64,000 nt of DNA from Strobilurus pachycystidiatus. Taxonomy: Eukaryota; Basidiomycota; Agaricomycetes; Agaricales; Physalacriaceae. The stretch spans positions 62,001 through 126,000 of the forward strand of contig JAHLMK010000021.1 of assembly GCA_019915135.1 (NCBI GenBank), given 5' to 3'. Position numbers and translations under genes: made by a program. Below are positions 14,226-52,126 of the stretch, one piece after another. The stretch's first letter is position 1. The number at the start of each line of letters is the position of its first letter. The notes under the pieces are model-generated. The model was not told the DNA's origin and made no database searches. It saw only the letters and a program-made list of their open reading frames with translations.

Positions 14226-16134
14226 TCATTTCTGGATATCATAGAGGCAAATGTTGATTTGAATGCACACGCCACGATCGTTGGGACCTCCTGGATCCGG
14301 CTTAGGTTCCACGCCCAGAAATCGGTACGAACCCCCAAGGTAGTCGATTCGCTTCTCGTCAAACACTCTTTCGTCTAGATGCATGCCCTTCCGGGTGGCA
14401 TATCTCTGTAACGCGGCGGACCTCGTTTGCGCCGTCTCAGCCATGTCATCCTCTGATACACCCAATCGAGCATGCTCATAGTCTGATATGGGCCGCTGGA
14501 GATACGCCCACAGCTCATGCAAGAATTTCTGCACAGTGATGGGCTCCATGCTGTCATATAGGAGCGGAGAGACATCTAGCAGGGCCTGTAAACGTTTGTT
14601 GCTGGACGTGACCCGGAAGCGGCGCAACTGTCGCTCGAAAGCCCACGCTCCAAAGGTCGGGGCGATGAGTCGGGGCAGGCCTTTCTGGGTGAGGCTGCTA
14701 CGGTCGTAATATCGGCAATGCCTCGACCCACTAGTGTAAGGGGGCAAAGGGATGAATCTCATGTCCCACGCTAGGCCCGCTTGGGTGACTAGATTGCCAT
14801 CGTCCATCTGTTTGAGGGTACCGACGAGTTCGCGATCGACATATACGAGAGGATGTGCTTGGACCCCGGTACCTCTGGGAATGAGGTTGGACGGATGTAC
14901 GGCATGTATATCCTCGAGCATCGGCAAGTCAAACGTAGGACTCTCTTCCGAGATCTGGAGAGCATAAGCCAGAACACTCAAAGTAGATAGAGGATGGCGG
15001 TGTACCTGCAGATCTTCCACGCCAGGGAGCCATTCGCTCAAGATGTTCACCATCAAGCGTGAATGAGACTGTATTTCGCATCGATTTGTTTCGGTAAGAA
15101 GATAGGCGTCGAAGCAACTCCAGTACTCCAAGTGATTGAAGAGCTCTAGGAGGATGTTTCTTCGACGTGTGCAAAGGGCCCCAGCTGCGGACATCGTCAA
15201 ACCTTCAGCCTCAACCCCTATGATAGTTTGACGAGAACTCACTAAGGCGCAATTCAGAGATATTCAGAAATGCCGTCACTTGCTTCAGAGCATCCTTCCA
15301 TGTGAGTAGTTTTGGACCAGGTAAGGTGCCCCATACGAGATTGCGCGCGATGATGATGCACTGGACGGGAACGGGAATAGTGTCACTTCCCATACAATGA
15401 GTCCGTCGAAGGTGCACTTCCAGGGGATTTATTATTTTGAGGAAACCCCCAAGGACGTCAAGCAGCATCTCTAGTTCCATCTTGGGACCAATTTCGACAT
15501 CTTCTGTAGCTTCATCATGGATGGGTATGTGTCCGACGAGAGGTGCGCTGTCGATAGTGGCGCGTAGTTTGGACAGAGTCTCGGGGCTGCCAAGGTCGTC
15601 GAATGGAAGCATCTGACATGCGAGAGTTGCATCTCCCAGGTCTTCGGTCGACTGTATGACACGTCTCACCAGAGAAGTGAGGGTGTCATTTGGGTCGATC
15701 GCCGTGAGTTGGGATCGTCGGTTTCCTGCTGCTGCAAAGAGGGTGTCTCGTAGGCACAGGAGTTCTCTGAGGGCCCCGTACGACTGTTCCCCCATGGGTA
15801 TGTATCGCTTCAGTCCGTCGGCAAAGATATTGAACGAGACGAGATGACGGTGATGGAACATGGGCGACTGGTGGGTATCGCGCGCGCCACACTGGAGTGC
15901 ATACAAGCAATCGTGCACGAGGGATACGAAGACGAGGAAGAATTTCCTCTCATTGATGATCGCGAGGCTGCAGATCGCTGGCGAGGCTGAGGCGTCGCGA
16001 AGTTTTTGTGAGCAATGGGCCCGGACATTGTAGGAAGAGTTGGCCATTTCCGCAGGATTTTGAGGAGCGGAATTCAGAGAAGAATGTGGCGCAACGTCGA
16101 ATGTGTTGCTCCGCGCTTTTTTGGTGGGGTGCAA
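14226..16134 (-). CDS. B0: long divergent relative of the B family
   Basis: Two exons (15243-16134 and 14226-15202) give 622 residues. The first 300 residues share the B-family layout: a segment like LVSLVHDCLYAL at about residue 70 (B proteins have VALIHDCLVAL), alternating helical stretches, and VWGTLPGPKLLTWKDAL near residue 275 (B proteins have LCGLLPGPSILTPEGAY). Unlike B1-B4 it lacks the STVDWND N-terminus and carries an extra C-terminal region of about 325 residues, with no recognised domain, in place of the short 55-residue last exon. The intron is short (40 bases, 15203-15242) but keeps the frame. The ATG at 16047 is an alternative start. It diverges from the deubiquitinase gene, the same geometry as B4 and the deubiquitinase remnant at the other end of the array. 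Function unknown. Confidence 0.65.
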
Positions 16135-17143
16135 GCTGTTGAGATGCTTTGAGCGGGACTAAACGCCACAGTAGGAGAAGACACACGATAACACGAGGCT
16201 CACGTCACCCGGAATCGTTGTGGCGACGATCGAGAGAGCCTTTGGTATTGTGCGGCGTGGTAGCACAGGCGACGGTGGGTGGTGGGTGCTAACGGTATAG
16301 CATTATGGTGCTGATGGCTTATAAGCTGAAAAGAGAGCTGCATTTCTGTTCAGAGAACAATAGCTGTGATTATTGCTGTAGAAGTTGACAAGCTGCATCA
16401 AGACCGGATTCGGCCTCCTATTGTTTCACACTCCGATCGGCAAGGCCGACGCGCTCCTTACCTTCTACCACCATGTCCAGATATCCCACCACTGTCCCAG
16501 CTCAACACTGCTGCTGGGCCTCCTCTACGCACAGTCATTTCCTGGGCTAGTCGACAGCACAAAAGCTACCTTCACGCCCGAACGCCACATAACGTATAAT
16601 AACAACCCTGATCCGGTCCCACGAAACGTAACGAACGCGCTTGGAACAACATTTTGAGGACAAGGATAATCAAAGCTTGATGGCAGAATACAACAAACTG
16701 TGGCTCGGTGATGGGTACGCGCTGATCTCGTTAGTACTGCTTCAAGAAGTACAATAACACTTCCTTACCAGGACCGTCCAGATTGTGGCAACGTGGGGGC
16801 CATAAAGCTGGGATCTCGTTCGCCCAGAGAGCTTTCTATCATCTTTTCTTCATCCCCCCCAAATTCTAGTCAGCATGCTAATCAACGGCCGGATGATGTT
16901 ATTCAAGGATTCGAGGAAAAAGAGACTCGAACGAGAGGATGGCTCCATCCCACGTCGTATGTCGTCCAGTCTGTTCATTTGAAGCTTTGGCTGACAAGCT
17001 CTGTAGCGCCAGTGCTCTTGGAAGACTTGCAGAAGGGGCCTGGACCCAAATACCAAGTCCAGTTAGGGCCTTTATCATTCCATCCGGTTCCTTCAACTTC
17101 CCCGCCTAAAATCCCCGAACCATCTCGGTTGAGTGGGACGGAA
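16135..17143. other. B0/USP divergent spacer with a possible short exon pair
   Basis: This is a 1-kb spacer between the starts of B0 and the deubiquitinase. A plausible small coding segment lies at about 16680-16867: MAEYNKLWLGDG spliced over an intron ending TTACCAG at 16770 to a segment ending FYHLFFIPPKF and a stop. It has no homologue I recognise and no clear start, so it is not called as a gene. Longer open frames (16366-16657 +) are also unsupported. Confidence 0.3.
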
Positions 17144-19786
17144 ATGCCCACAGACCCTTCCGTCGACTCGCGACACACTCAAATGGTGACCATTATCTTG
17201 TCTGGTTTTAACGAACCTCCTTCTCATATTCGAACAGAACCGAGAGTCGAAACCTCCACCAGTCGCGACCAACGGTGCAGCGCAGTCTCAGGCGCCTCGC
17301 CATCGTCCTCAGACCCCGACGCGGTCTGGCCTTCCCAATCCGCCACAGATAGTGGTTCCAATCTCTGAGTCCTTCAAAAGCTTGCAACATCCTACTCTGG
17401 TCGCCCCTACTGCTCCTGTTGTGCACCCCAGTCACCATGCGCCAGTCGCTCACGATCCACTACGGGATACCGCTGCTCAGCGAGGTGGAAATGCGCATTT
17501 ACAAGTGCCTCGTCCAGATTCGCGTCGTCCTCTGACACCGACGCATCCTGACGTGATTGTTCCTCCACAAGTAGTGATTCCGACATTTCCTCACAGTTCT
17601 TCCCCGGGTGCTGTTAGTCAGCGACCTAGAAGTTCGCACCTGGCGCGACCTCCTAGTCAGGTAGCACCTGCTCCTATAGCGCACACTGATTCAGCCCACG
17701 GCCTCCATGGCGCTCATGCGACTCATGCCCCTCGCTCTGCCCCTGCCGTACAACCGAATCCTTCAGCGATCGTACTGCCACACACTGCGGCACCACAGTC
17801 ACATCCGCATGAGCGGGAACATGCGCGGCATTCCTCGAACTCTCATCGCCAGATTGATACTCAGCCTCAGCAGCCAAAACAACCTCAACCAGCGCCGCCA
17901 GCTGCACACGCTAAAGCGCCATCTCGGGAACGCACTACGTCGTTGCGTCAACGAGAGACCGCTGCCCCAGCGCATAGCAGACCGTCTCACCTCCAGGCTC
18001 CTCCTCCTTCACAGTTGATGCAACCCCAGGCGGCTCCGCCTCCACCAGCTCGAGAACCAGAGCGGGGGCATCGTACCGCTCATCAACCTGCTCATGTCCC
18101 GCACCCAGAACAACAGCGGGTAAGGCTATCTGTACCCGCGCCAGCGCGAGGTGAATCATACTTCCAGGAACGTGTTGCTCCGTCTCAGCCTCGTCCCTCA
18201 AAGTCTCAGCGGGCGGCTGCGGCACCTGCACCTGCACAGTCCCATGCTGTGATGCCTGTTGTCCCGCGCGTCGAGCCGTCTTCCAGGGGTCAAGGTGTTC
18301 ATCAACAAACGAAGCCCGTTGCAGTAGCATCTGCGCCTATTTCGGTGGCCGAAGTTCACAGAAACATTTCCACTTCGAATGGACATCGTTATGGGCCGTC
18401 CACCGCGCACGATCCTGCGGCAGTTGCTCAAAATGGTGCCCTCCCCGTGCGGCTCTCTGTCCGACGCCAGACACTGAGGACCCTTCTCAACGAAGGGACG
18501 TTAAATGTACAAATGAAAGATCTCTGGCACTTCATCTCTCATGGTATCCACAATCCGGGAAACATGTGCTTTCGAAACGCTGCTCTACAAGGACTTGTAC
18601 GGACTCCGAGATTTGCGCTGCTTTTTCTCCAAATAGGCGAAGTCCTACGGCCGAATGAGTTCGGGAAGATTGCGCCTCTTGTGCATGCAACTGTCGATTT
18701 CGTACGGTTGTTTTACTGCAAGTCAGGCCAGTCGCGCTCTACAGGCGGACCCTGGATCAGCAAGAGCATCATGGAAGGAAAGTCTGTGAACCCAGAGCCA
18801 ATATTCGAGGTCATGAAGAACGCTATGCCGGAACTGTTCGCCTCCACTCGACAGGTGTCGGTACGTCCTCGATCACAATTTAAGATACCAAGTCTTCTAA
18901 CCGTAGTTCAAGTCTATGTTCCAAAGCCAGGAGGATCCATATGAATTTTTTTCCTTGTTGGTGCTGAGGCTGTCCGTACAATTCAACCTCATCCTCGAGT
19001 CTTTGGAGCGCCCATCCTGGGATCCGTCGCCCATGGAAATTGCAACCTTACAGCCTACTATTCTAAACGCGGAATCCTCTATCGATAAATTGTTCAAGGT
19101 CGTAGCAACGGGTGAGAGTCGGACAGTCATCCAACTTCCGTTACATGTACGTCCGCGCCATTCACGAATCCGCGAACGTTGACTCAACAAATTACAGGCC
19201 GATGTAACCGACATTGATTCACTTCTGGTGAGATACACGCACCAAATTGATGCCTGGGGTCGGCCGCAAAGCGCTCTATTCGAGCAATTGCCGGACATAC
19301 TGTTAGTGCAATTTGGCCGCTTCGTCAACGAACACAATGTTGGAAATACTGAGAAGAACATGCGCCATTACACGATCAACCCAGAACTTGTCATATCGGA
19401 GGGTAGGTGTCACCCATCTCCATAATTTCGCGAATTCTAAATAACCACAGAACTTACGGCTGCCTATTTCATGATGGGCACTGTGCGTTATCGTCTCGTC
19501 TCAAGTGCGTAAATCTACCATAGCGGAGACAATGGAATGACCTTTTCTTCCAGTTGTTTACCATCACGGTCGTTCGCATCTTTCGGGCCACTATACTGCT
19601 GATGCGACGCATCCTGGATATGCTCTCGATCGCCTCCGACGCCCAGATAGGCGACCATGGTACCGGGCGGATGATACAGCGATATCTCGTCTTCCGCCTG
19701 ATGAAGTGTTTAGGTCTGACGGGGATGTCTTCGCTAACGAGTACGAGAAAACGGCGTATCTCCTGATCTACGAGCGGGTTTCTTAA
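17144..19786 (+). CDS. Ubiquitin-specific protease (USP, C19 cysteine peptidase)
   Basis: Six exons (17144-17185, 17238-18860, 18907-19146, 19198-19402, 19451-19504, 19554-19786) give 798 residues. About the first 390 residues are a disordered Pro/His/Ala/Gln-rich region. The catalytic core then starts with the Cys box HNPGNMCFRNAALQGLV (nucleophile in GNMC). QSQEDPYEFFSLL matches the second USP box. The His box is VYHHGRSHLSGHYTAD, followed by PWYRADDTAISRL, the conserved W-Y-x-x-DD that follows the His in USPs, and the terminal AYLLIYER strand. All residues expected for activity are present. The low-complexity N-terminus plus this core recalls the Ubp3/USP10 group, but that assignment is tentative. 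A truncated copy of the 5' part lies at 32668-33190, beyond the repeated A/B array. Confidence 0.85.
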
Positions 19787-20054: not shown

Positions 20055-21034
20055 ATGGACAGTATTGAGAAGCAGTGAGTAGGACGTACGCATCGTCAAG
20101 ATGTCTCCTGATGATATTGTCATCCCCAAGCACCGACCTTGTCCAGGCGACAATGCAATACTTCGCACGCGCGCAAACAGCACGTTACGAAGATCTTATC
20201 CGTCCATTCAGTATGATACATTCAATCCATGCTTCCGCTCATTTTTCTAACGAATATCGTGAAGCGGCGCTGTGGTTGCGCGCAAACATTGACCGTGATG
20301 AGGACTCAATTGGCATTACATGGCCGCATGGCGAGCCCTGCACCGCCCAGGTTGTCTGGATGGAGCTATTCGATCGTATTCCAGCGGATCTCGTGCACAA
20401 ACCATCACTTGTCTTCATGACCAAGCACTGGGGCCATGTCAAGGAAGGTGAGTATGCCACATGTACTCGTAATTTGAAGCTTATGCTTACAACGGTATCG
20501 TTAGTTCTACTCCTGCTACAAGCTGAGATCCCGGTTCTCTCGCTTTTCAGAGAATGGAGTGAGTGTTCGACTCAAAGCCATGTGGCGTATACATCTGTAC
20601 TCATCGACCTCCACAAGTGAGCAAGTTCGTCCAACTCAATGAAAACAGAAGTCATCAGAGCTCCTATGTATACCTTCCCGGTTCCAATGAAGAGAGAAAG
20701 TATCATATCGACGAGGCGTGGAAGGCTTGGGAGCAAAGAGCTAGACACCACTCAAGGCAAATGGTTACGCGCGATCACGTTCCGCGTGCCCTGGAGACTC
20801 TAGTTGAGCGATACAACTGGTACCCGCCTACCTCTGGGGGTATGCTGTGTGGTGTGTTGTACTGTGAAACACCTCTGACGGTACTTACTGACTCTGAATC
20901 CAGCCGTGAAAGAAGTCATGCAGAACAAGTTGTTCACAGAATTTCTCAATATACGGTCAAGGAACTCTCTCTACCGATTCGCAAAGTGCGATGATGATAT
21001 CTACAGAACAGGGGGACTGTACATACGTTGTTAG
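20055..21034 (+). CDS. A1: array gene of family A, intact
   Basis: Six exons (20055-20074, 20131-20210, 20265-20447, 20505-20558, 20618-20851, 20904-21034) sum to 702 bases, or 233 residues. The protein is soluble, with no signal peptide or membrane segment. Recurrent family motifs are: an N-terminal helix (DLVQATMQYFARAQ), ITWPHGEP at about residue 55, LFDRIPADL, KHWGHVKE, an amphipathic helix LLLLQAEIPVLSLF, SYVYLPGSNEERKYH, EAWKAWEQRA, VTRDHVPRALETL, and a C-terminal LFTEFLNIRSRNSL. No known family is recognised. The stop TAG (21032-21034) overlaps the stop of the opposing gene B1 (21031-21033). It lies 268 bases downstream of the USP stop. Confidence 0.72.
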
Positions 21035-22403
21035 TGCATGTACTGTTCACGGAACGCTTTAAAGTGTAGCAGCAGATCTTTGACCACAATCCACTGATTA
21101 CGGTTTGCCTGGAAGATATGAGTCTGTTCGAAGGCAAGAGCGAATGCTGTCATGAAAGACTTGACTTTTACAGACTGCTCATTGGGAATAACCATCCCTA
21201 ACAAGCCACGGTTAATAACGAGGAATACTATTGGTCATATGACTCACACATCAGCCAGTTATCTTTCCACTCCACAACGAGAGGTCTGAGATACATTGAA
21301 TACGCGCCCTCTGGAGTCAATATTGACGGTCCTGGCAGCAAACCGCACAGGACATCGCGGCATAGTAAGAGATGGCGCATGTGCGGTGAACGCGTCGTAA
21401 ACCGCTGGTAATCCAACGACTCAAACTGAGTTCGACATGGTCCAGTCAGGGTTTGCTGGATGATTACCCACATCGCAAGAAGGATGTCTTCCAGTATCAC
21501 GATCTCGTGATGAGACGTGAGATCGATAGGGACGCGAGATAACGTCGGGTCCTCAAAAGGCCGGATGGACAGGAAGTCACGAATGGAGCTGAGGAGTTGA
21601 GAGGACATCTCCCTCGACGGGACTTGCAAATGACTGTCCACGCGCCACAATAGCTCTATGCAATGCCGCTCCTTCTCAGGCTCCATACCGACAGGTGTTT
21701 CGGCCAGCACCGAGCTGATGATTCGCCGAAGCTCAAGTGTCTCTCTGGCCCCTCTGTGATCTCCGATGCGTATCAAGTCTTCGCGACTGCTGAAGAGCAC
21801 TTTTTCGCGAAGCATGACCAGGTCAAGAATTGATGAGAACCGATCTCGAAGTCCTTGCGACTCCAAAGGGTCCTCGAAGTCGACTATATCGTCTTTGGTG
21901 ACGTACAACGACAACAAACGAAAACGGTCTTTGAAAACATCTCGAGGAATGAGGCCGGCAGAAAGCCGCTCGAGCGCAACCAGGCAGTCGTGTATCAAGG
22001 CAACAAGGATCTTGTGTGCATTCTCGTCATCGTATGACTCAAGGCGATAGAACGTCTGGATAGGGAGGTAAGGCTGCGCGGGCGCCTGTGAAGACACTAT
22101 GCCCGGTCGAAAGAAGTCGAGCTCTCTGTCATCATCACCCGCACATCGACGACGTGCTGGGAGATTGGGAGTATTGTCGAACGTGGTGGGGGAACGATCG
22201 AACCTGGATGTGACCGGCGGAGGGTGGTATCCGTCATTCCAATCAACTGTGGATGCGTCTGAGATCACCGAAGAAACGCAGGAGGCATCGTCAGCGATGC
22301 CCAGACCCTCCAAAGAGGCGTCAAGATCATCCAGACGAGTTGTTCTCTCGCGCTGGTCAGTCTGCGTGTGGTGGTAGTTGGTGTACTGCGTGGCACGCGA
22401 CAT
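21031..22403 (-). CDS. B1: array gene of family B
   Basis: Two exons (21248-22403 and 21031-21197) give 440 residues. The N-terminal 130 residues are hydrophilic, with RTTRLDDLDASLEGLG and VISDASTVDWND. The core begins at FYRLESYDDENAHKILVA, runs through LIHDCLVALERL and RFRLLSLYVTKDDIVDF, and closes with HLLLCRDVLCGLLPGPS. The short last exon ends in a helical stretch (QWIVVKDLLLHFKAFREQY). It is soluble and mostly helical; no known domain is recognised. The donor after ATGT and the acceptor TTAG generate a Trp codon across the intron, as in B2-B4. The 3' end overlaps gene A1 by 4 bases. B1 and B4 are the closest pair in the array, with similarity extending about 400 bases into their upstream regions. 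An in-frame ATG far upstream at 22556 is rejected as a start because the family consensus begins MSRATQ/MPRTNH. Confidence 0.72.
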
Positions 22404-23453
22404 ATTGGGAGAATGCACAGGAATACGGGCCAAAGAAGTGAGCGCTGGGCCAGCAGCACGTCGATTGTAAGTGGTTCGAAAAGCAATGAGCAATCCTTTT
22501 ATCGGGTTGCCGCTCCAGACCCGCGCAGTACAGTAATTGTTGCAGATATGACACATATGATGGTCGTCGTCAACGATTCAGAGTGATGCTAGGTATTATT
22601 GTTTAAGACTAAAGCAAAAGAGCTGGGTGACCTGAAAAGAACAATTAGCCTCCTTTTGAAACAACAATTAGCAAGGCGGCCTATGCGGCCCAAGGCCTCT
22701 CAAGCACGGAGCGATCGTAGATCTTACGAGAGTGAACAGGTGCTGATTGCTGTCATGCCAGTGGCAGCGGGGATGTGGTGGTACACTGTACAGTGTCACT
22801 GTAAGTGGACAGCCACCAGGCTGTCGGACACTGTCGGACCGAGGTCTGCTGACTAATATGCGCCCCGGATTGCGTCTCCGTCGTCCGAGTTTCTGTCTAA
22901 GTCTTCCACCTCTGGTGATTATTTTCGCCCTCAGAATCATTGAGTCAACGCGCTCACCAGATTGTTTGAAACGAGGGATACTGCTCTCCAAAGCTTCAAC
23001 AGGTAGCGGGATCGTCGGGGTAATGGGCGGACATAATATTCGGTCCGACTCGGAGGATGGGCGGTTCAAATCGTGCTGCTCACTTTCACGCTCGTGAGTA
23101 AGTGGTTTAATGAAGTCCTCATAGAGTATAGCCTATCCAAACTGTGATGAAGTATGTTTGTCGAGTCTACCGCGTGTATCTGGGACGTATAGGCGCTTGT
23201 GCCACATATATGCTTCTGAGATTCTGAGGACTGGACTTCGTACATCCTGCTGGAAATTCCGATTGTGAGCGCCCAACTCCATCCTTCTTGTGTCTTTGTT
23301 CAATAATCACAGACGCACAGTGTGCCTTGTTCCGATCTTAGGCGTTCTTGTTCCTTCTCTTATAAAGTCCTTCAAGTTGTGTCTTCTTGTAGTGGCTCGT
23401 TCGACATCCCCACCATCGTGAATCGGTATTTGTGCCACTGGCAGGACTTGAAA
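22404..23453. other. Divergent spacer between B1 and A2
   Basis: This holds the B1 promoter and the A2 upstream region. The first 400 bases (to about 22810) are similar to the B4 upstream region (32149-32535), including two copies of the short word AACAATTAG. No gene is seen. Confidence 0.5.
22496..22504 (-). promoter_or_regulatory. TATA-like element of B1
   Basis: The minus strand reads GATAAAAGG about 94 bases upstream of the B1 ATG. A TATA-like word occurs at nearly the same distance before B2, B3 and B4. Confidence 0.4.
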
Positions 23454-24405
23454 ATGAGGTTTGTGCCTACTTCTCATATCTACAGTATTCGCTCGCTCAT
23501 CCTGTTTCAGTGACCGAGAAGAACATCTAGCCCAGGAGGCAGAAGGATACCTGCAACTTGCACAAACCGCACAATACAATGATCTTTTTGTTCCTTACGG
23601 TGCGAGCGTTTGCACTGTATAATACCCGGCTATAATTGTCCTCCAGTCAATCTATGGTTAAAAGCCAATGACTACTATGCGGATGATGCTGGATTCGTTG
23701 TATGGCCGTGTGGGCACCGCGATTATCCAGACAATATCTGGATTCGAAATTATCGCGGAATTCCCGCTGACTTGTGGTATCAGCCAACATCAGATGCGAA
23801 GGACGAATGAAACGGAAGTGGAGCCATATCAAGGAAAGTAAGTCCTCTCTGTGCGTTACTGCTCTGCAAAAACACTCATATGAGTCAGTCTTGCTCTTAC
23901 TCGAGCTTGAAATTCCGTATCTCTGGCGGTTCAAGGAATGGAGTGCGCATATTTCCTCATAACTGTTTGACCCATCCTGATACATTGAAACACAGTGCTT
24001 GAGTTCGTGGCACTCAACTCCGAGCAGACTGGCCAACCCCTTCATATTCAGCTTCCCTACAGCGGCGCTGTCGGTTGCACCGTACAAGAGGCATGGCGCG
24101 CCTGGAGGACAAGAGCCTGTGACTCGGCGAATGGGCCACTCACAAGAGAAACTGTACCCACGACGCTGAAGCATCTCATTGACCTATACCGTTGGTATCC
24201 TGAGACCCGTGGTGGTATTGTGAATGGTAAGTGACGGTGAAATAACATGTTATCTTGCTGATTTCACAATGTAGCGATGAAGCAAGTCTTGCAAGTCAAC
24301 CTGTTCCAGGAGTTCCTTGATTTGCGTTCGGAATATGCTATTACCAGTCCTCACACTTTCAGATTGCGCAAGATACGGGAGGCACGTAGATTACGTGGTT
24401 TCTGA
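23454..24405 (+). pseudogene. A2: array gene of family A, frameshifted
   Basis: This has the same six-exon layout as A1: a start exon of 5 bases (ATGAG), then DREEHLAQEAEGYLQLAQ, VVWPCGHRDYP in place of the WPHGEP block, and IPADLWYQP. After YQP the frame runs into TGA at 23808-23810. The family continuation (KWSHIKE, matching HWGHVKE) appears in another frame, because the stretch between the two anchors is 8 bases longer than in A1. No GT donor is available to splice it out. Downstream exons are still recognisable (LLLLELEIPYLWRFKEW, a segment ending ACDSANGPLTRETVPTTL, and VLQVNLFQEFLDLRS). The original stop TGA (24403-24405) lies 3 bases from the stop of B2. This is the most diverged A copy. 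A frameshift in the assembly cannot be excluded. Confidence 0.6.
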
Positions 24406-24408
24406 CTC

Positions 24409-25886
24409 CTAGAGACTATACTTGTCGCGGATTTGATCCAAGAAGAATAACATCTCCTCGAGTGCACCTCGCGGGTCTTCCCACCAGTGTGCCAGTGTTC
24501 CGTCCTTCTCGAGCGCATACTGGACCCTCTCCGTCCTTAAATCCTCCAACTGAGCGCATTCTTCATTGGTGAGAATTTGCCCTTGAAATGACAATCAATG
24601 TGCGCGCACATACAACAGCGAGTTACTTCGGACTTACATAACAGCCAATCTTTGTTCAAGTCGGTGAGAAGTACGCGGAAATAAGCGGTGAATGTCCTTT
24701 TCAGAGTAAGGGTAGAAGGCCCTGGAAGCAAGCCACATATGACATCGCGGCAAAATATCAGATGGTGCAGATGAGGCGGGCCGCCATAGAAGCAGTGATA
24801 AGAGAGCGACAAGAGCTGGGCGGGTGCTGCTCGGTCCAAAGTTTTGGTACTGTGGCCCCACAGTCCAAGAAAAATGTCGTGTAGGAGGGCGATTTCGTGC
24901 GCGTAGCCAAATTGTACGGGAATTAGAGACTTCGTCGGGTTGTCGTAAGGGCATATCATCAGGAAAGAGCGAATATCACGGCAGAGTTTGGGATAATCCA
25001 AGAGTGATGGCTGCCGTGACTGCAGATCAGAGTCAATACGCACAAGAAGGGCATTGAAGACCTCCGGCGATCCTCGTACCATCGCCCTCGGATGCTCAGA
25101 AAACACCGCTGCGATAGAAAGGCGTAAGGACTTGATCTCCTCCTCTCCCCTGTAACGCCGCGCTTCCCGTAGATCGCTCATACTGGCAAACAGAGTTTCT
25201 CCTCGAAGTTCAAGTAATCCGCTGATAGCCATCATTCTTTGAGATAAACCTTGGGCATGCAACCCATCCCTAAAAGGCAAGAGATCATCGTCAATTAGGT
25301 AGAGCGACAACAGCTGATAGCGGTCGTCAAAGGCGTCTGGCGCACGTCGGCCAGCGCGGAGGCGGTCGATGACAAGGAAGCAATCGTGGATGAGGACAAG
25401 AATGACCTGAAGGGCAGAATCATCATTGAACTCCTTCAATCTGTAGAATGTCTGCATGGGACCGTAGGTGGGATCACTGGCAGGTGTTGGGCCCAAGCGG
25501 GAGACGCTGTGGTCGTCATCGGGAGACTCCGCTGCCAAGTCTCTGTGACGCAACTGGCGAGTATTGCATGCATCGCTGGAATCGCCCGAAGGCATCGACG
25601 AGTGACGTCCGCCCGACCGATGGAAAGCAGAAACATTTCTGACGTTGCTGGAGGGTGTAGAGTTGTTCACATATGTGGGAGAGTGCCGGCCGTCGTCCCA
25701 GTCTACCGTAGACGCGCCAGTGATTGTAGAGGAAGCGCAGGAGGAGCTGTCACTGCTAGTGTTGGACAGCTCCAAACGCTCGAGGGAGGTGTAGAGATCA
25801 TGTGGGTAGCCAGTACGAGCGGTCCTCCCGCGCCGGTCAGTCTGGGCATTGGACTGGTATGTGTGGTGATGGTTGGTCCGGGGCAT
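24409..25886 (-). CDS. B2: array gene of family B
   Basis: This is a two-exon gene of about 455 residues. Its N-terminus has RTARTGYPHDLYTSLERLEL and STITGASTVDWDDGRH; the core has FYRLKEFNDDSALQVILV, LIHDCFLVIDRL, and HHLIFCRDVICGLLPGPS. The intron donor follows CTGTTAT, and the acceptor TTTCAAG restores a Trp codon across the junction, exactly as in B1, B3 and B4. The last exon reads QILTNEECAQLEDL... to DQIRDKYSL, clearly different in sequence from the last exons of the other copies although similar in length. It is the most diverged B copy, paired with the most diverged A copy, which suggests that the A/B pair duplicated as a unit. Its stop (24409-24411) is 3 bases from the A2 stop. Function unknown. 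Confidence 0.7.
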
Positions 25887-26611
25887 AGTGTGAAGGGGAT
25901 TGAGGAATGAGAGGATATGGAGCGTCGATCCAGCGGCGCTTAGTCTGTTCGGACGATCAAGGATGCAATTCTATATAGCCATCGTTGCCTCAGGTCAGTG
26001 AAACGTCCATTAATTGATGTCAAAAGCTATGGCCGTTGCCAGCGATCCGCGACAGACATACTCCTTATTGTCTGACGGGAATTGGTTAACTTGATTCAAC
26101 AATTAGCGTCAAAGCTGATGGAAAGAACAATAAGTGCACTGTGAAGCGCACCATTCAAAATATGTCCGCACAGAGGATTGTTATTTGACAGACGGAGATT
26201 CTGGCCGTGTAGTCGCATTCACTGTAATGCGAGACACACCGAACAAGTCGCAGACGAAAGGTGTAAGTGCTGACGCGCTGACGGTCGTTGTCGAAGATCG
26301 AGGTCTGCTCCCTAAACCGGTTACGGCGCATCAAATGGTTCCCACGGGGCGCGTTTCCCTATCAGAGATCTGACCTCTCCGATATGTTCGCACGAGCGGA
26401 ATCCTCATTCAGTCCTCATACAAGGCCTCAATGTACCGCACCACCTTTTTCATGCTTTTGGATGGCCTTGTTTCGAGGAAGATGCTCCCGGACGGTGTTC
26501 TTGTACCCAATCGAGTGTCTCTTGTTCTGTCATCATTCTTATGGTGGGAGACAGAGGAGTTGAGAGTCAGTCGCTGCTTTCTCTGCTCTTCTGACGAACA
26601 AACAGACTGAT
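25887..26611. other. Divergent spacer between B2 and A3
   Basis: The B2-proximal part (about 25970-26170) is similar to the B3 upstream region (about 29035-29240), including TCAACAATTAGCGTCAAAG in both. The A3-proximal part (about 26330-26540) resembles the A4 upstream region. No gene is seen. Confidence 0.5.
25971..25978 (-). promoter_or_regulatory. TATA-like element of B2
   Basis: The minus strand reads CTATATAG about 86 bases upstream of the B2 ATG, the position equivalent to the elements of B1, B3 and B4. Confidence 0.45.
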
Positions 26612-27575
26612 ATGACCGGCGCCCCAGAGTGCGTACAACTCATACCAGAGGAAATGAATCGCATTGAACCTTTTCGAACCACGCAGAGCTGACCTTGACC
26701 TGGCGACAAGGCAATACTTCGTCCTCGCACAAACAGGAGAATTTGGAGATCTTATTCATTCTTACAGTGAGGTGCTCCCGCTTGTGCTGTCCACTCTCTC
26801 TCTGACAGCTGGCAAGTTGTGGATGAGTGCAAACAGAGGCCGCCACGACGAATCATACAGCGTCACATGGCCCCATGGCGAGATCTCGAACCCGCACATT
26901 GTTTGGAAAGACCTCTTTGACCGTATTCCGCCCGACTTATGGCACAGACCGTCCATCGTATTCTCGGCCGTGCATTGGCGACATGTGAAAGAAAGTAAGT
27001 GCACACTTTCATGTCAAATAGGTTACTGAGATCTCTGGTGCAATCAGCTTTGCTCTTGCTACAAGCTGAGATTCCGGTTCTCGCTCTTTTCAAAGACTGG
27101 AGTGAGCATTTTGATCATTCACAGATCATGACTATTCATTTCGTATCAGTGACTAAGTTTGTGGCGATGAACAACACGCGAAACGATAGCAGCCTCTATG
27201 TATACCTTCCCGGAGCTGATGAACAGAGAAAGTATCCCGTCACAAAAGCATGGAATGCCTGGAAGCAGCGAGCCACCTACTACGCGAGCGGCAGAGTCAC
27301 TCGCGACCATGTTCCACGAACTCTAGAGAACCTTATTGATCAATACAGCTGGTATCCCAATACGTGGGGAGGCATCCTGCGTGGTACGTCAATATGCGAA
27401 GTGCGATTCAGTATCACTGACAGTGCTGGGTCTAGCTGTGAGGGAAGTCATGCGCGACGATCTTTTCACTGAATTTATCGACATACGATCCAGAAACTCC
27501 CTTTTGAGGCCTGCTCTTTCCCGGTTGGCAGAAAGTGGCAATGATATTTGGAGCTTGGAGATACATGACTCATGA
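26612..27575 (+). CDS. A3: array gene of family A, intact
   Basis: Six exons with the family splice phases. It begins MTGAPEADLDLATRQYFVLAQ; then come VTWPHGEISNPH, LFDRIPPDLWHRPS, HWRHVKE, LLLLQAEIPVLALFKDW, LYVYLPGADEQRKYP, RVTRDHVPRTLENLI, and a C-terminal LFTEFIDIRSRNSLL followed by a short tail. All exons are open and all boundaries GT/AG. The protein is soluble, about 230-240 residues, with no recognised domain. Its last two codons and those of B3 share a palindromic TCATGA (27570-27575), so each stop codon lies inside the other gene's last Ser codon and stop. The intact frame, together with A1, argues that family A is a real coding family rather than decayed sequence. Confidence 0.7.
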
Positions 27576-28957
27576 GCGTATATAGTTGTCACGAAACGTT
27601 TTGAAGTGCAGCAGCATGTTTTTCACCACAACCCACTGACACTCACTGGCTGCGTATATGTGGCTTTGTTCGAAGGCAATGAGAACGTCTTTCCTGTAAT
27701 CTGTGACTGACTGGAATTGATTGTCTGGGACGTCTCTCCCTACGGCACTTGAGTACCGGAAAGCATCGGAAGAGAAAATTGCTCACACATCAGCCAATGA
27801 TCCCAGAAGTCCACGACAAGAGGCCGAAGATACAATGTGTATGCACTCTCAGGCGTTAAGACCGATGGTCCGGGCAACAACCCGCATAGCACATCACGAC
27901 ACAGTAAGAGATGACGCATGTGCGGTGAACGCGTCTCAAAACGCTGGTACTCCAAAGATTCGAACAGGGTTCGCACTGGCCTTTTCAAGGTCTTTTGGAT
28001 AAGACCTCTCATGCCAAGAAAGATATCCTCGAAAATCACGACCTCGTGGTGCGATGTGAATTCAGAGGGTACACAAAGGACCGTCGGATCTTCAAAAGGT
28101 CGAATGCACAGAAAGTCCCGAATGGACCTCAGAATGGGGGCAGATGTTCTCGTCAAGTCTCTCGACAAGACCTGCAAGCGACCTTGTACGTGCCGCAAGA
28201 GGTCGAGACAGTGCGTCATCTTCCGAACATCCAGTTCGAGAGGTAACTCAGCTAACAATGAGCTGATAATCTGCTGAAACTCTAGTATCTCGCTGGCCCC
28301 TCTGAGGTCCCCCATGCGTAACAGGTCATCGCGACTTCCAAAGAAGACTTTGTCGCGGAGCAATACAAGGCTGGTAAGACCAGAGAACCGGTATAGCAGT
28401 CCTTGGCCTTCCAAAGCATCCTCAAAATCTCCGATATCGCCTTTGGTGATGTAGAGTGACAAGAGGCGAAATCGGTCAACAAAGACATCTTGAGGAATGA
28501 CCCCAGTATACAGGCGGTCAATAGCAACCAGACAGTCGTGGATGAGGGCAAAGATCAATTTGAATGCGCTCGCGTCATCCAAGGTCTCTAGACGAAAAAA
28601 TGTCTGGATAGGCAGGGTTGTTGCCGGAGTTTGCAAAGGCACCGTTCCGGGGCGAAAGAAGTCGGAATCTCGTCCTTCGTGGCCCATACTATGAAGTGCA
28701 TGACGGGGGTGGACAGTGAATGTATCACTCATTGCGGAGGTGGCACGACTAGAGCTGGATATGGACAAGCAAGAATGGCATCCATCAGTACAGTCCGCCG
28801 TAAACGCGCCAGTAATTGTAGAGGAAGGGCAGGAGGAGCGTTCCAAACGCTCAAGGGAGGTATCTAGATCATGTAGGCAGCCAGTACGAGCGGTCCTCCC
28901 GTGCCGGTCAGTCTGGGCATTGGAATGGTAGGTGGGGTGATGGTTGCTCTGTGGCAT
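27570..28957 (-). CDS. B3: array gene of family B
   Basis: This is a two-exon gene of about 445 residues. Its N-terminus is like that of B2 (RTARTGCLHDLDTSLERLE) but its STVDWND motif is degenerate (AFTADCTDG). The core is closer to B1/B4: DFFRPGTV, FFRLETLDDASAFKLIFA, LIHDCLVAIDRL, RFRLLSLYITKGDIGDF, HLLLCRDVLCGLLPGPS. The last exon reads RDVPDNQFQSVTDYRKDV... and ends NYIRS. The mixture of a B2-like N-terminus and upstream region with a B1/B4-like body suggests exchange between copies. The 3' end overlaps A3 by 6 bases through a TCATGA palindrome. Function unknown. Confidence 0.72.
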
Positions 28958-29801
28958 AGTGCAAAGGGCAATGCGGAATGAGCGAAGAGGTAGCGCCGGT
29001 CCAGCAGCAATGGGGTTGGGATCTGTTTGGACAATTAGGGATGCAACCTTATATTGCCATCGTTGCCTCAGGTCCGTGAGGCGTCCAGTGATTGTTGTAA
29101 GAAGCTATGGCCGTCGCCAGCGTCCAAGAGACGGCAAGATTTCTTATTGTTTGACGGAAGTTGCGTAACCTGGATTCAACAATTAGCGTCAAAGTTCGGA
29201 AGGTACAATAGAAAAAACGCACCATTCATGAAACGTCCGCATAGTTTTTTCTAATCGAATCGTTGTTTGGCGGACGGAAGAGTGTTGGCCATGGAATTAT
29301 GCCAGAACTTTATTAGAACTTCGAATGTTCGTTTGAGGGCAGAGAGTAGTCTAAATTGTCAGGCAGCGGACTTCAATATCTGTCGCGTTTGAATCCGAGT
29401 CATGGCAAACAAGTCGTAGACGAGAAAGGTTGAACGTTGAACGTAAAGTACGCCAAGTGCTGACGGTTGTTGTCGAGTTGAAGTTCCGAAGTCTGCCCCG
29501 GAATCCGGGAGCCGCTTGAGGCGCATCATATCTTTCCCACGAAGCTTTTCAGAGCATCGCAGTCAATATCACACTCAACTGTCAATGCCAGGCCGCGTTG
29601 GACACACCACTGGCTTCAGGAACGGAGCATAAGAAAAGCGATGTATTGTCAACCCCAGGATGATCTTGTTCGTATTTTGGACGTGCTTGTACCGAATCGA
29701 GTGTCTGTTGTTCAGTCGCTGTTCTTATAGAGGGAAATGTCTCAAAACGGTGATAGCCCGCCTCCTTCCTCCCCGACTCTGAAGTAATCCGTGACGATAT
29801 A
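28958..29801. other. Divergent spacer between B3 and A4
   Basis: This contains the B3 promoter (similar to that of B2) and the A4 upstream region. A segment near 29515-29615 (GGCGCATCATATCTTTCCCA, then CTGTCAATGCCAGGCC) recurs at about 32549-32660, beyond B4. No gene is seen. Confidence 0.5.
29049..29055 (-). promoter_or_regulatory. TATA-like element of B3
   Basis: AATATAA on the minus strand, about 92 bases upstream of the B3 ATG. Confidence 0.45.
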
Positions 29802-30768
29802 ATGGCTATTGTCAATGCTCAGAAACAGTGGGTTCCAACAAAGAACGCAAACCTGTCTCTGATTTTGACAGTTTTGAACTGGTCCAGGCGACCGGGGAGT
29901 ATTTTTCTCGTACGCAAACGGCCCCATACGAAGACCTCATCCGACCATATAGTAAGACACAATTCAATGCTTCCGCCCACCTGCCTGACAACGTCGGAAA
30001 GCGAAGCTAAGGTTAAACGCTAACGTTAACCGTCCCGAGGACTCGTGTGGCATAACGTGGCCCCATGGCGAGCCCTGCAGCCCGCAGATCGTCTGGTCGG
30101 AGCTTTTTGATCGCATTCCAGCGGATCTCTGGCACAAACCATCACTTGTCTTCATGACCAAGCACTGGGGGCATGTCAAAGACGGTGAGTAGTATGCCAC
30201 AAGTTTTCGTAGTTTGAGGCTTAGGCTATGCTTCGCCAGTTCTACTCCTGCTACAAGCTGAGATCCCAGTCCTCGCGCTATTCAAAGAATGGAGTTAGTG
30301 TTCCTCTTGTGTGGTGGCGTGTACATTTATATTCATTGACCTACCCAAGTGATCAATTTTGTGCGACTGAACGAAACTACAAGCCACACAAGCTCTTACG
30401 TATATCTTCCCGGCTCCAATGAAGAGAGGAAGTATCATATTGCAGAAGCCTGGAAGGCATGGAAGCAAAGAGCCAGGCACTACGTCTAGGGAAGAGTTAC
30501 GCGCGACCACGTTCCCCGAGCTTTAGAGACCCTCATTGACCGATATGATTGGTGTTCGCCCACCTCCGGAGGGATGTTGTATGGTGTGTTGCACCCTGCA
30601 GCAAATTCACTTATTTGAGTACTGACGCAGCCCCCAGCGGTAACAGAAGTCTTGCAGGATGAACTGTTTACCGAATTTCTGAATTTACGATCGAGGAAGT
30701 CCCTCCACCGATTCGCGAAGAATGATGAGGATGTCTACAGTATAGATAAACGATACTTGAACAATTAG
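29802..30768 (+). pseudogene. A4: array gene of family A, in-frame stop
   Basis: All six family exons are present with normal boundaries, and the sequence is very close to A1 (ITWPHGEPCSPQIVW, LFDRIPADLWHKPSLVF, KHWGHVKD, LLLLQAEIPVLALFKEW, SSYVYLPGSNEERKYH). In the fifth exon, where A3 reads YYASGRVTRDH, A4 reads HYV, then TAG (30487-30489), then GRVTRDH. The rest of the exon and the last exon (VLQDELFTEFLNLRS) stay in frame to a terminal TAG at 30766-30768, so this is a single nonsense change with no other damage visible. A truncated product of about 170 residues, a read-through product or an allele-specific lesion are all possible. The terminal TAG overlaps the B4 stop by the same TTAG arrangement as in A1/B1. 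Confidence 0.65.
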
Positions 30769-32148
30769 TGAATGTAATTTTCGCGGAATCCTTTCAGATA
30801 TAGTAGCACATCCTTCACTCCAACCCACTGATTACGGCTTCCATGGAAGATATGATTCTGTTCGAAGATCACAACGACCATTTTCTCAATGAAATCCTTG
30901 ACTTCCGCAGAGTCTTCAATGGGAATATCCCTCCCTGGTACGATTCTCAGTCAAGAACGAGTCACAGCTGGCAAGTGACTCACAAATCAGCCAATGATCT
31001 CTCAAATCGACAAGGAGAGGTCTAAGGTAGGTTGTATACGCGCCCTCGGGGGTCATTATGGACGGTCCTGGCAATAGACCGCATAGGACGTCGCGACATA
31101 GCAGGAGATGGCGCACGTGCGGCAAATGCGTCGTGAGGCGCTGGTAATCCAACGACGCGAACTGAGTTCGGCATGGTCTAGTCAGGGTTTGCTGAATGAT
31201 ACCCCACATCCCAAAGAAGATGTCTTCCAGTATGGCGATCTCGCTAAGAGACGTGAGATCGATAGGAATGCGAGATAAGGTCGGGTCCTCGAAAGGGCGG
31301 ATGGACAGGAAGTGACGAATGGAGCTGAGGAGAGGAGAAGAATTATTCTTCGACTCCCACGACGGGACTTGCCAGTGACTGCCCACATTCCACAATAATT
31401 CTATGCAGTACCGCTCTTTCTCAGGCTCCATACCGACAGGTGTTTCCGCCAGCACCGAGCTGACGATTCGCCGAAGCTCTAGTCTTTCGCTGTCTCCTCT
31501 GAGATTGCGCATGAGTATCAAGTCTTCGCGACTGCTGAAGAGGACTTTGTCCCGAAGTACGACCAGGTCGAGAATTGACGAGAATCGATCTCGCAGTCCT
31601 TGTGACTCTAAAGGATCCTCGAAGTCAACTATATCGTCTTTTGTGACATACAACGATAGCAGGCGAAAGCGGTCTTTAAAGACATCCCGAGGAATGAGTC
31701 CGGCAGAAAGGCGTTCGAGCGCGACCAGACAGTCGTGTATCAATGCGACAATGATCTTGTGTGCGCTCTCGTCATCGTATGTCTTGAGGCGATAGAACGT
31801 CTGTATAGGGAGGTTAGGTTGCGCAGGCGCCTGTGGAGACACTACGCCCGGTCGAAAGAAGTCCAGCTCTTGGTCATCGTCAGCTGCACGGCTACGACGT
31901 GCACAACTAGGTCGGGCAGTGGATGTATCGTTGTACGTGGTGGGAGAACGAGATATGACCGGAGAAGGGTGGCATCCGTCCTTCCAATCGACTGTGGATG
32001 CGTCTGAGATCACCGAAGAGACGCAGGAGGCATCGTCAGCGATGCCCAGACCCTCCAAAGAGGCGTCAAGATCATCCAGACGAGTTGTTCTCTCGCGCTG
32101 GTCAGTCTGCGTGTGGTGGTAGTTGGTGTCCTGCGTGGCACGCGACAT
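30765..32148 (-). CDS. B4: array gene of family B
   Basis: This is a two-exon gene of about 445 residues and the closest paralogue of B1: identical RTTRLDDLDASLEGLG and nearly identical VISDASTVDWKDG, LIHDCLVALERL, RFRLLSLYVTKDDIVDF, LLLCRDVLCGLLPGPS. The last exon begins RDIPIEDSAEVKDFIEK and ends FRENYIH. The donor/acceptor pair again recreates a Trp codon. The frame is intact. The stop (30765-30767) overlaps that of A4 (30766-30768). Similarity to B1 continues upstream of the start for about 400 bases, so the duplication that links module 1 and module 4 is recent or has been kept similar by gene conversion. Function unknown. Confidence 0.72.
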
Positions 32149-32241
32149 ATTGGGAGAATGCACAGGAATACGGGCCAAAGAAGTGAGCGCTGGGCCAGCA
32201 GCACGTCGATTGTTAGTGGTACGAAAAACAATGAGCAATCC

Positions 32242-32248
32242 TTATATT
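32242..32248 (-). promoter_or_regulatory. TATA-like element of B4
   Basis: AATATAA on the minus strand, about 94 bases upstream of the B4 ATG; same position as in B1-B3. Confidence 0.45.
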
Positions 32249-32667
32249 GGGTTGCCGCCCCAGACCCGCGCAGAGTAACAGTAATTGTTGCAGATATGAC
32301 ACATACGATGGTCGTCGTCAACGAGTGATGCGAGGTACTTATTGTTCAAGACCAAAGGAAAAGAGCTCGGTGACCTGAAAAGAACAATTAGCCTCATTTT
32401 CGAGCAACAATTAGCAAGGCCGCTTAAGCACGGAGCGGTCATAAATGGCCCACGAGAATGACTCCGGCGCTGATTGCTGTCATGTCAGTGGCACTGGCAG
32501 CGGGGAGGTGGTGCCACGGGTGGTACACTAGCCATCAGCACGGCCTCCTTGCGGCGCATCGTATTTTTCCCACGAAGCCTTTCAGAGACCACTCATATGC
32601 CACTGAACGGTCAATATTGTCAATGCCAGGCCACGTCAGAAACACCGCTAGCTAGGATACGCAAGTC

Positions 32668-33190
32668 ATGCCAACCGTCGAGCGGGCAGAACCTTCGCCT
32701 GGTACAGACGTCGACGATCTGTGCCTATCAGTCTGCGTCCGCTACGCCCCCTTCCTTTGTGAGTCCCCATACCGCTAGCCTCTGGCTCGGCCCAATGTTG
32801 ACAGTACCAAAGGTACTATCGCCTCGGTAGCCCAGAAGCATTTTTTGAGGGAAGGAGAATCCGCACGTCACGTCGGCAACGCAAGTCAACTTCGTACAGG
32901 GACCAATTCTGCAGCGCAGTCTCAAGCGCCTCGTCAGCCTCCCCATCGTCCTCAGACACCGATGCTGTCAGACCTTACCGTTTCGCTGCAGACAGTGGCT
33001 CCAGTAGCTGACTCATCCAGATGGTAGTACCTACTGCTCCTCAGGCTGTTGCGCACCCCAGTCACTATGCGCCAGTTGCTCCCGACCCACGACGAGATCC
33101 CGCTGCTCAGCGTGGTGAAAATGCGCAGTCACAAATGCCGCACCAAAATCCTCTTGCGGCCCGGACGAAGAATCTGCTGCGTGCAAGGCC
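32668..33190 (+). pseudogene. Truncated copy of the USP gene 5' end
   Basis: From the ATG at 32668 the sequence follows the start and Pro/Gln-rich region of the deubiquitinase at 17144-17520. Matching blocks include GCAGCGCAGTCTCA (32913-32926 against 17276-17289), CCCATCGTCCTCAGAC, and CACCCCAGTCAC.ATGCGCCAGT followed by CCGCTGCTCAGCG. The similarity stops near 33190, before any part of the catalytic domain, and the frames are interrupted. It starts about 520 bases from the B4 ATG in divergent orientation, mirroring the B0/USP arrangement at the left end of the array. Confidence 0.65.
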
Positions 33191-33742
33191 GTTTATCTAA
33201 ACCTCAATTTCCTAGTCCCGACGCGAGAGTGGGAGGGTGTATTCGATGTTTAGATACAGGGCGACGCGCAGGAGTTTGCTGATCTGCTGCAAGTTGAGCT
33301 CGATCGAGAGCTGGCAGAGGGACGCGCGAAAGAGGAAGAGAGAGGCAAATGCAGAGGTTTCGCAGACGCCAAAGAAGAAGACAAAAGTCGCATCACCGTC
33401 CATTCATTCTCGAATCACTTCGACACCCTCACAGCTCACATACACATCTATGACCATCCGCATCCCTCCCGTCTACCAGCCTCCAACGACGCCGCTCAAA
33501 ACACGAGTCAGGTCGTTCTTCCCTCTCACACCACCCACGCCGGAGTCCCCATGCCTACTACGAACTACACATCGCTCTCCAGATCGCCGCCTCAACAAAA
33601 ACCACAGTCTGAATCTCAACCACCTTCTCCTCGGCGACACCACCTCCTAACATTTTCATCATCGACTCCGAGTCGCAGTCGACCGTCTCCTCTCATCAAC
33701 TTAGTGGACTCTGACTCTGATGGCCAGCTGGAACGGACTTAG
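33191..33742 (+). pseudogene. Coding-like fragment, unassigned
   Basis: Two overlapping plus-strand frames have coding-like composition: one with basic patches (ARKRKREANAEVSQTPKKKTK) open from 33237 to 33650, and one reading LNFLVPTREWEGVFD near 33201 and ending SPLINLVDSDSDGQLERT at 33742. No consistent single gene model joins them, and no domain is recognised. It directly follows the USP remnant, so it may be part of the same decayed block or a small lineage-specific gene. Confidence 0.3.
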
Positions 33743-34700
33743 ATTGATGCTACTCCCGACTGTGTATTGACTATGTGTTCGGCGGGGAGAGGACGTTTGG
33801 CTAAGAAGTTGGGCCGAAGTCTCGTCGTCTTGTACCCTCTGTGCAACTTTAGAACACGGCAAAACCGTGTGACACGAGCTAGCTAGCCACGCACAATCAT
33901 GGATTCAACGCCGCTGCTTCCATCTTGACAAGGACTTCCTCCTTTTCCCAGCTTGCTCGGCACTGGCCAGTCATTCCTGAGAGTTATCGCGTCTTTCGGG
34001 TGGCCTTTACGCTTGATCATCCACGCCTGCTGGTGCGCCATTAAAGTCTGCGTTGCTGATCGAGCACTATTCGTCCCAGTTGAGTATGGAGCGCCTTATG
34101 TTTGCGGGGAACGTCGGACCGTTGAAACATCGGTACACATACGTACGCGCATGTATCAGCTGAAGGCTGAAAGTATTTTGGCAAAATCCGCATAACAACC
34201 AAGGAGAAATTAGCCGAATGGCTTTATCAGCGATCAGCGCTCGGCGCTCAGCAACTACATAACGGTTAACCTTCCGAGTTTGAATAGGATTCTAGTCTCG
34301 TCTGACAATCACTGTGATGTAAGCAGGCGAAGGCTTGTGGGGATGAAGTGCTTGTCTGGAGACGAAGTTTTGTCCGTCGGAAAGCAAGGTTCTTATTTTG
34401 CTTGTTTGGCCGCTGCAAATCGTCTCTCCCGGCTGCGCGAGGGTTCGTCGGTTTGACTCCGCTGACCCAATGATATGTAGGACCAGGTGAGGCCTATGAG
34501 GGCTAATGCTTATGTCAATTGTTCTTATTCAATTCCTGCCGTCAATTTTCATCATCACTTGCCGCCTTTCATTATCTTTTCCTAGCCTGAGGGGATGGTT
34601 ATCAAGCCATCTAGAAAGTATATGAGCACTCTTGATATCAGAGGCGTAGTCCAGTTTCATTCGCCCAGTCCAACCGCAACTCCCACGCACTTTCTCGACA
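33743..34700. other. Intergenic stretch upstream of the SDR gene
   Basis: About 950 bases with no supported gene. Short open frames (33953-34195 +, 34529-34801 -) lack domains. It separates the A/B/USP block from the enzyme genes to the right. Confidence 0.45.
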
Positions 34701-51639: not shown

Positions 51640-52126
51640 AGGCTGTAGACTCGCGCGATTATCCACCGCGTAGAAATCTAGCGTCGTAGGCTACATATCG
51701 TCCTCCAAAGCACAGAATATCAACGGTTATATCGACATTGAATCTTATGGGTTGACTGGGAAACATGTTAAATTTGTTTGAAATGTTGATCATGCATGGG
51801 ATAAGGTCTAGCGCTTACATCTGATACCACTCACCATAACAGTCTGAGTCGGGTAAGAAGAGCGCCTATACTGTATTATCGATTGCAACCGAGAAGGCCA
51901 GTGGCTGGTGTTTGAGCGCGTATACGCCGGCCCTAAAGTGAACGTGGCCACTTTCGAACTTGAAAGGTACCTTCCTGTTCCCTTCTTCACCGTCGCGCCA
52001 TTCAGTAGAATTGCATTCATTTGCTGTACGTCTGTAGCACCCCACCTTCTCTTAATTGTCTCTCATTCTTGTATCAGCCCGCCCGCGACGTCTACATCTA
52101 GCACCACATCGCCAACTGAACAAACT
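51640..52126. other. Upstream region of the first tandem F-box gene
   Basis: The part from about 51910 to 52126 is similar to 53645-53892 before the second copy (GCCGGCCCTAAAG, TTCCCTTCTTCAC.GTCGCGCCAT), so the duplication included the promoter. The frame is open back to 51908, but no ATG is shared between copies there. Confidence 0.5.

Follow-up and report, generated by a model that had tools for sequence, protein, structure and literature searches.

Tail-to-tail gene pairs of two unrecognised families in Strobilurus pachycystidiatus suggest a two-part protein assembly

A stretch of 64,000 nucleotides from the basidiomycete Strobilurus pachycystidiatus (assembly GCA_019915135.1, contig JAHLMK010000021.1, here C21, positions 62001-126000; hereafter the window) carries four consecutive units of two genes, A and B, that lie tail to tail and belong to no family that we could recognise. 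A functional partnership of A and B within this genome is well supported. Indeed, their linkage, their fixed orientation, their mirrored trees and an apparent fusion of the two together indicate that they act as partners. The explanation that we favour, to which we give a probability of about 0.55, is that A and B would form a single protein assembly, each contributing a subunit or a domain, with products that probably bind each other. Eukaryotic genes of unfamiliar function seldom come with contextual clues as strong as bacterial ones; here, two uninformative orphan families become one directly testable complex, with a ubiquitin-linked neighbour beside it.

The four units, for which gene models were built by hand, extend from position 20055 (the ATG of A1) to position 32148 (the ATG of B4). 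Every A lies on the plus strand and every B on the minus strand, as a previous reading of this DNA (the sequence-only reading) had described. The same reading gave A six exons and 230-250 residues in all units, which is accurate for A1 (20055..21034; exons 20055-20074, 20131-20210, 20265-20447, 20505-20558, 20618-20851 and 20904-21034; 233 residues) and for A3 (26612..27575; exons 26612-26628, 26687-26766, 26809-26994, 27048-27101, 27150-27383 and 27436-27575; 236 residues). The other two copies are disrupted. In A2 (23454..24405) the exon pattern is recognisable, but exon 3 measures 191 nucleotides (nt) versus 183-186 nt in the other window copies and the frame is lost, whereas A4 (29802..30768) has its six exons and an in-frame TAG at 30487-30489, in exon 5. 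Hence only A1 and A3 are open among the A genes of the window. All four B genes are open and have two exons, as announced: B1 (21031..22403; exons 22403-21248 and 21197-21031) encodes 440 residues, B2 (24409..25886; exons 25886-24638 and 24581-24409) 473, B3 (27570..28957; exons 28957-27787 and 27739-27570) 446 and B4 (30765..32148; exons 32148-30984 and 30934-30765) 444.

Splice phases are conserved in A1, A3 and A4 (2,1,1,1,1) and in the single phase-1 intron of B; exon 3 of A2 is out of frame. Likewise, the motifs attributed to A are found with small changes in A1, A3 and A4 (YLPG.NEERKY, for instance, reads YLPGADEQRKY in A3), while A2 has WPCG; of the two B motifs, CGLLPGPS is present in all four copies and HDCL is replaced by HDCF in B2. 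A1 and A3 share 56% identity and the cores of B2-B4 are 42-83% identical to that of B1. The ratio of nonsynonymous to synonymous substitution rates (dN/dS; pairwise Nei-Gojobori method, NG86, with many dS values near or past saturation) is 0.09-0.19 among A1, A3 and A4, and 0.13-0.17 among B1, B3 and B4. Divergence accompanied by such low ratios excludes chance.

We then considered the rest of the fungus's own genome (51.8 Mb, 61 contigs), in which all counts of places are lower bounds. A was searched genome-wide with four different single A proteins as queries, B not being taken into account, and places were counted at an expectation value (E) of 0.01 or less, the window's four and fragments included; this leaves out weaker matches on C18 (E 0.041) and C28 (E 0.51). 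A B gene stood beside 21 of the 22 A places, in convergent orientation at 18 and on the same strand at three. All 18 unfused pairs, fragments included, are therefore convergent, and they are spread over C1, C9, C10, C16 and C21. The only A place lacking B is a fragment at C9:628.4k (E 0.0014), which adjoins a protease-like match at C9:627.6-628.1k. The sequence-only reading had proposed that A and B function together from their duplication as a unit, which alone is weak evidence; pairing in the fungus's own genome supports the proposal, and the situation said to speak against it, A and B being usually unlinked, was not seen there.

Seen from B, the association is looser. Exon 1 of B1 gave 36 exon-level matches in the genome; merging by place, with further queries, yielded 36 B places, fragments included, of which 21 have an A, three have a DUF6699 gene directly downstream and 12 have neither (at places that were not fetched, absence of A was judged from the genome-wide A searches alone). 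The pair does duplicate as a unit, in tandem and dispersed copies, as had been claimed, yet 15 of the 36 B places have no A, which means that B has a role without A or that these B genes are relics.

Alignment of 20 fetched loci with an intron-aware profile yielded 16 A copies beyond those of the window, and 12 of these are near-complete. Among the 12, introns numbered on A1, all of phase 1, were recovered at position 34 (11/12), 95 (12/12), 113 (11/12) and 191 (12/12); the L040 model starts just before position 34, and that of L032b puts the position-113 intron 12 positions later. The 16 copies scored 63-400, whereas seven base-shuffled loci, scanned 14 times in all, never exceeded 30, but the profile was iterated on the same loci and the scores are hence partly high by construction. 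An uniterated profile of A1, A3 and A4 nonetheless gave a best exon at E 8e-4 or better in all 12 near-complete copies; it did not match the A fragment of L044.

The strongest evidence for the A and B proteins acting together is, by splice model, an apparent fusion on C2. Between 2.75 and 2.77 Mb, this contig has three loci at which B is followed by A in the same orientation. In each of them the frame of B exon 2 continues without a stop across a common linker, up to a phase-2 GT-AG intron leading into A exon 2 (junctions read by eye), phase 2 being also that of A's own intron 1. In L046 the junction intron is itself open, and the frame continues whether it is spliced or not. Between L046 and L047b, 7 of the 17 codons of the linker (ISSxRAFERPLNxNLAD) differ synonymously and 2 nonsynonymously, and the other two comparisons gave 4 synonymous and 1 nonsynonymous, and 8 and 2. 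This excess of synonymous changes is as expected if the linker is translated. One C2 gene would thus encode a B-A fusion, as modelled from splice sites and not from a transcript. This is the gene-fusion (Rosetta-stone) pattern: two genes that are separate elsewhere, and one open gene at three of three loci by splice model.

The history of both families also bears on the partnership. Across 14 pairs (excluding A2/B2, L035 and partial copies of A), the distance matrices of the two families correlate with r 0.885, a value reached in none of 10,000 permutations and in 15 of 2,000 shuffles restricted to within clades. With midpoint rooting, the trees of A and of B both contain groups from C1, from C9/C10/C16, from C2 and from the window. 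Purifying selection acts on A (dN/dS 0.09-0.33) and on B (0.12-0.24 outside the fused clade). Mirrored trees, however, would also result from neutral linkage alone, that is, if one convergent pair had arisen once and spread by segmental duplication, its close ends being hard to separate, with no functional tie between the genes. The pairs indeed co-duplicate, as seen from their tandem arrays in the window and from the similar copies that C1, C9 and C16 carry, and B often occurs without A. On the other hand, the arrangement has been kept despite a mean protein distance over all pairs of 0.66 for A and 0.65 for B, and despite few shared neighbours: protease family aside, few other genes are common to loci of different clades within the few kb fetched. 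An in-frame fusion of B to A, joined by a conserved linker, is likewise not expected under neutral linkage. We consider this explanation unlikely, but deserving of some weight.

Another possibility is that the pair is a regulatory one only. The coding sequences of A and B overlap at their ends in units 1 (4 nt), 3 (6 nt) and 4 (4 nt), and a gap of 3 nt separates them in unit 2; counting the models of L033, L037 and L040, stops overlap or are at most 7 nt apart in seven pairs. Overlapping 3' ends would allow mutual silencing of the transcripts while the proteins have separate functions. However, stop-to-stop gaps in the 13 modelled convergent pairs outside the window range from -4 to 262 nt (probably upper bounds where the second exon of B is unmodelled; a fourteenth pair, C1:537.9-538.6k, consists of two fragments seen only in genome-wide matches), and regulation alone leaves the fusion unexplained, which makes this a poor candidate. 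In an assembly of A and B, touching or near-touching 3' ends would probably also couple the expression of both genes through antisense overlap.

The sequence-only reading had recognised neither family, and searches of Pfam, NCBIfam and the Protein Data Bank (PDB) likewise brought up nothing convincing for A or B. In Pfam nothing passed the cut-off for single proteins, nor for 13 A and 16 B members searched one by one, the best weak match being RM5_Med14 in 2 of the 13 A members (E 0.0072). NCBIfam gave nothing convincing for A1 and B1 exon 1, the only queries used, and neither did sequence searches of the PDB (best E 0.015). Among 5.8 billion proteins, in a collection in which fungi seem thin, A3 had no match and B1 had two, both unnamed. 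An AlphaFold2 model of the B core, from a 7-sequence alignment, is all-helical, with a predicted local distance difference test score (pLDDT) of 70.3 overall and block means of 66-96 at residues 21-180, and showed no convincing fold match to solved structures. Since no known family or described system matches A and B, we provisionally take them as a new kind, within the scope of the searches named here, fungal proteomes being outside it; both families may exist elsewhere as unnamed proteins. Among known arrangements, the HD1/HD2 mating-type genes of basidiomycetes are also paired, encode interacting proteins, lie side by side and are duplicated as pairs, but those are divergent homeodomain genes, and A and B had no homeodomain match in the Pfam searches.

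A further alternative is that the repeats are a mobile element and that A and B are its products. Copies are many, both tandem and dispersed. Nevertheless, the Pfam and NCBIfam searches matched neither A nor B to a transposase, an integrase or any other family, no terminal inverted repeats were found (the longest exact inverted words in the 1-kb flanks are 11 and 13 nt for units 1 and 2, with none of 11 nt or more for units 3 and 4), and the copies are highly diverged and under purifying selection. Membership of one family in a transposon, which the sequence-only reading had named as grounds for abandoning its proposal, was thus not seen, and we regard a transposon origin as very improbable.

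What the assembly might do is suggested by the N-terminus of B and by a neighbouring gene. Of 28 B N-termini, 14 contain PPxY, placed 26-30 residues ahead of the core; shuffled N-termini have it in 1.2 on average and in 6 at most. Its occurrence in half of the B proteins is compatible with B being a Rsp5/NEDD4 adaptor or substrate. In addition, a gene of the ubiquitin-protease family lies beyond the A start at seven places: four C1 loci, C16:510.8k, C10:477k and the window. It is divergent from A at the six places outside the window and on the same strand as A in the window, where a ubiquitin-specific-protease-like gene of several exons occupies 17190..19786 (+) upstream of A1. By eye, this gene has a Cys box (GNMCFRN) and a His box (GHYTA), in likeness to UCH/USP deubiquitinases (PF00443); searched in pieces, it gave UCH scores of 18.8, 14.5 and 22 bits, all below the family cut-off. 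That cut-off (23.9) was passed only by the neighbour proteins of L040 (45.9 bits) and L034 (38 bits), with exons joined by hand; UCH E for two neighbour genes with hand-joined exons was 7e-12 and 1.8e-9. Unlike active enzymes, some copies seem to have lost their catalytic residues. Read by eye, the catalytic His is Ser in L039 and L040 and Asn in L034 (SGSY, SGNY), and in the column of the window gene's Cys all three have Thr or Gly, an alignment-dependent result, with a Cys two columns away in L039 and L042. With both Cys and His apparently replaced, the copies of L034, L039 and L040, on C1 and C16, look inactive, and that of L034 also carries an in-frame stop.

From these observations, the assembly could be pictured as follows. 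B, predicted to be all-helical and in many copies endowed with an N-terminal PPxY, would be an adaptor recruiting a Rsp5/NEDD4-type ligase; A would be its small Trp-rich partner; and the ubiquitin-protease relative beyond the A 5' end, whose catalytic residues are sometimes apparently lost, would be a third component. The assembly might then act in ubiquitin-dependent control, a weaker part of the proposal than the partnership itself.

Part of the same evidence would fit a toxin-antidote pair, in which A is harmful without an antidote B encoded in cis, and the arrays are selfish or non-self-recognition loci. A is almost always with B (21/22) and B is alone at 15 of 36 places; B is open beside a broken or partial A in window units 2 and 4 and in L032a, L037 and L038; and next to a broken A, or with A missing, B appears to be under constraint, with three-point dN/dS of about 0.18 (L037) and 0.16 (L029). 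The PPxY at a fixed N-terminal place in many B proteins recalls the wtf poison-antidote meiotic drivers of fission yeast, also a multi-copy fungal family, whose antidote acts via N-terminal PY motifs binding Rsp5/NEDD4 ligases (PMC10721834). In Schizosaccharomyces, wtf is one gene with two products, multi-transmembrane proteins (PMC10721834), unlike A and B, which are two unrelated genes. A toxin-antidote pair predicts that A is never found without a working B, and L035 (C16:517k) contradicts this, its modelled A being open and its B having a stop and a frameshift. In L044 the A is partial and the B frameshifted too. Moreover, a toxin and its antidote are not usually fused as B and A would be, and selection on A and B is of the ordinary purifying type, only the fused B showing signs of rapid evolution. 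Altogether, we hold this explanation to be distinctly unlikely. Just as speculative is the broader idea of a new eukaryotic system of two or three components (B, A and the ubiquitin-protease relative), forming a ubiquitin-based self/non-self or toxin-antidote device that was amplified in this mushroom-type fungus and whose core proteins were fused in one lineage. To our knowledge, no such class of toxin-antidote or recognition system is known in Basidiomycota, and none appeared in the literature searched.

Several observations weigh against the assembly of A and B or its link to ubiquitin. Besides the 15 B places (fragments included) without an adjoining A, the protease gene was not found by profiles in the fetched flanks of C9:601-610k, C9:224k, C16:561k and C2, and its match at C10:477k is weak (profile E 0.016, improving to 2.7e-4 once the window gene is included). 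PPxY is absent from B1-B4 of the window, and also from the fused B; the 14 copies that carry it fall in two clades plus P0001, which indicates conservation rather than 14 separate gains. In the A tree the broken A2 has no firm place beside A1, A3 and A4, although B2 clusters with the other B copies of the window. The fused B domains evolve faster (dN/dS 0.50-0.74).

Further protease-like sequences were observed. A degenerate partial copy lies beyond B4 (32900..33750, +; blastn 252 nt, 74%, E 4e-40, mostly N-terminal low-complexity; QGDAQEF box by eye), and C1:772.6-775.6k has more pieces of such a gene, with no A match alongside in the genome-wide A searches.

Within the window, units 1 and 4 share 85-100% identity at the B 5' end and its upstream region, and units 2 and 3 share 70-90%; outside this region, units 2 and 3 are 35-66% alike and units 1 and 4 51-91%. 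This suggests gene conversion at the B 5'/upstream region of units 2 and 3, the contrast being milder for units 1 and 4. The homogenised-looking upstream/N-terminal stretches are 25680-26050 with 28770-29120 (clear) and 22200-22760 with 31950-32430 (milder). The word ACAATTAG occurs upstream of each window B (22641, 22664, 26099, 29031, 29179, 32384 and 32407) and elsewhere in the window at 30761 and 43869; it is possibly a regulatory site, or merely the result of shared ancestry.

The B domain also occurs next to other genes. B5, a fifth and very diverged B-domain open reading frame (ORF; 15211..16158, -), has no A beside it. The initial profile, built from window B1-B4, P0001 and P0002, detected it at E 4.6e-4; it reached E 2e-44 only after joining the profile, and it matches one other B at E 4e-4. 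Directly downstream, on the same strand, lies an ORF with DUF6699 (PF20415; 14226..15263, -; E 3.9e-9, above cut-off), and a B5-DUF6699 fusion is possible from a reading of the junction. At three loci a B domain is followed by DUF6699 in the same orientation (the window, C5:2945.1k and C5:1871.5k; 3 of 48 DUF6699 matches), and the junction at C5:2945k can be read as two genes or one. In this position DUF6699 is like A at the C2 loci, but A itself has no significant match to it (hhalign probability 0.1). A B-domain gene with a long N-terminal extension (741-residue open frame), PPPPY and a conserved CGLLPGPS was seen in L031 (C17:1174.8k), with no A found in its flanks.

Finally, a gene at 55896-57007 (+) has three copies of a STVDWND-like motif also present in the N-termini of B1 and B2; one-to-one blastp against these two gave E 2e-7 and 3e-7. 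Its relatives, one at C5:2943.9k (E 1.9e-5) and a weak one at C18:54.0k (E 0.05), are convergent with DUF6699 genes, perhaps another tail-to-tail pairing. Two adjacent and related ORFs, F-box-like by eye (51857-53428 and 53812-55257, +), have relatives in L041, near an A/B pair.

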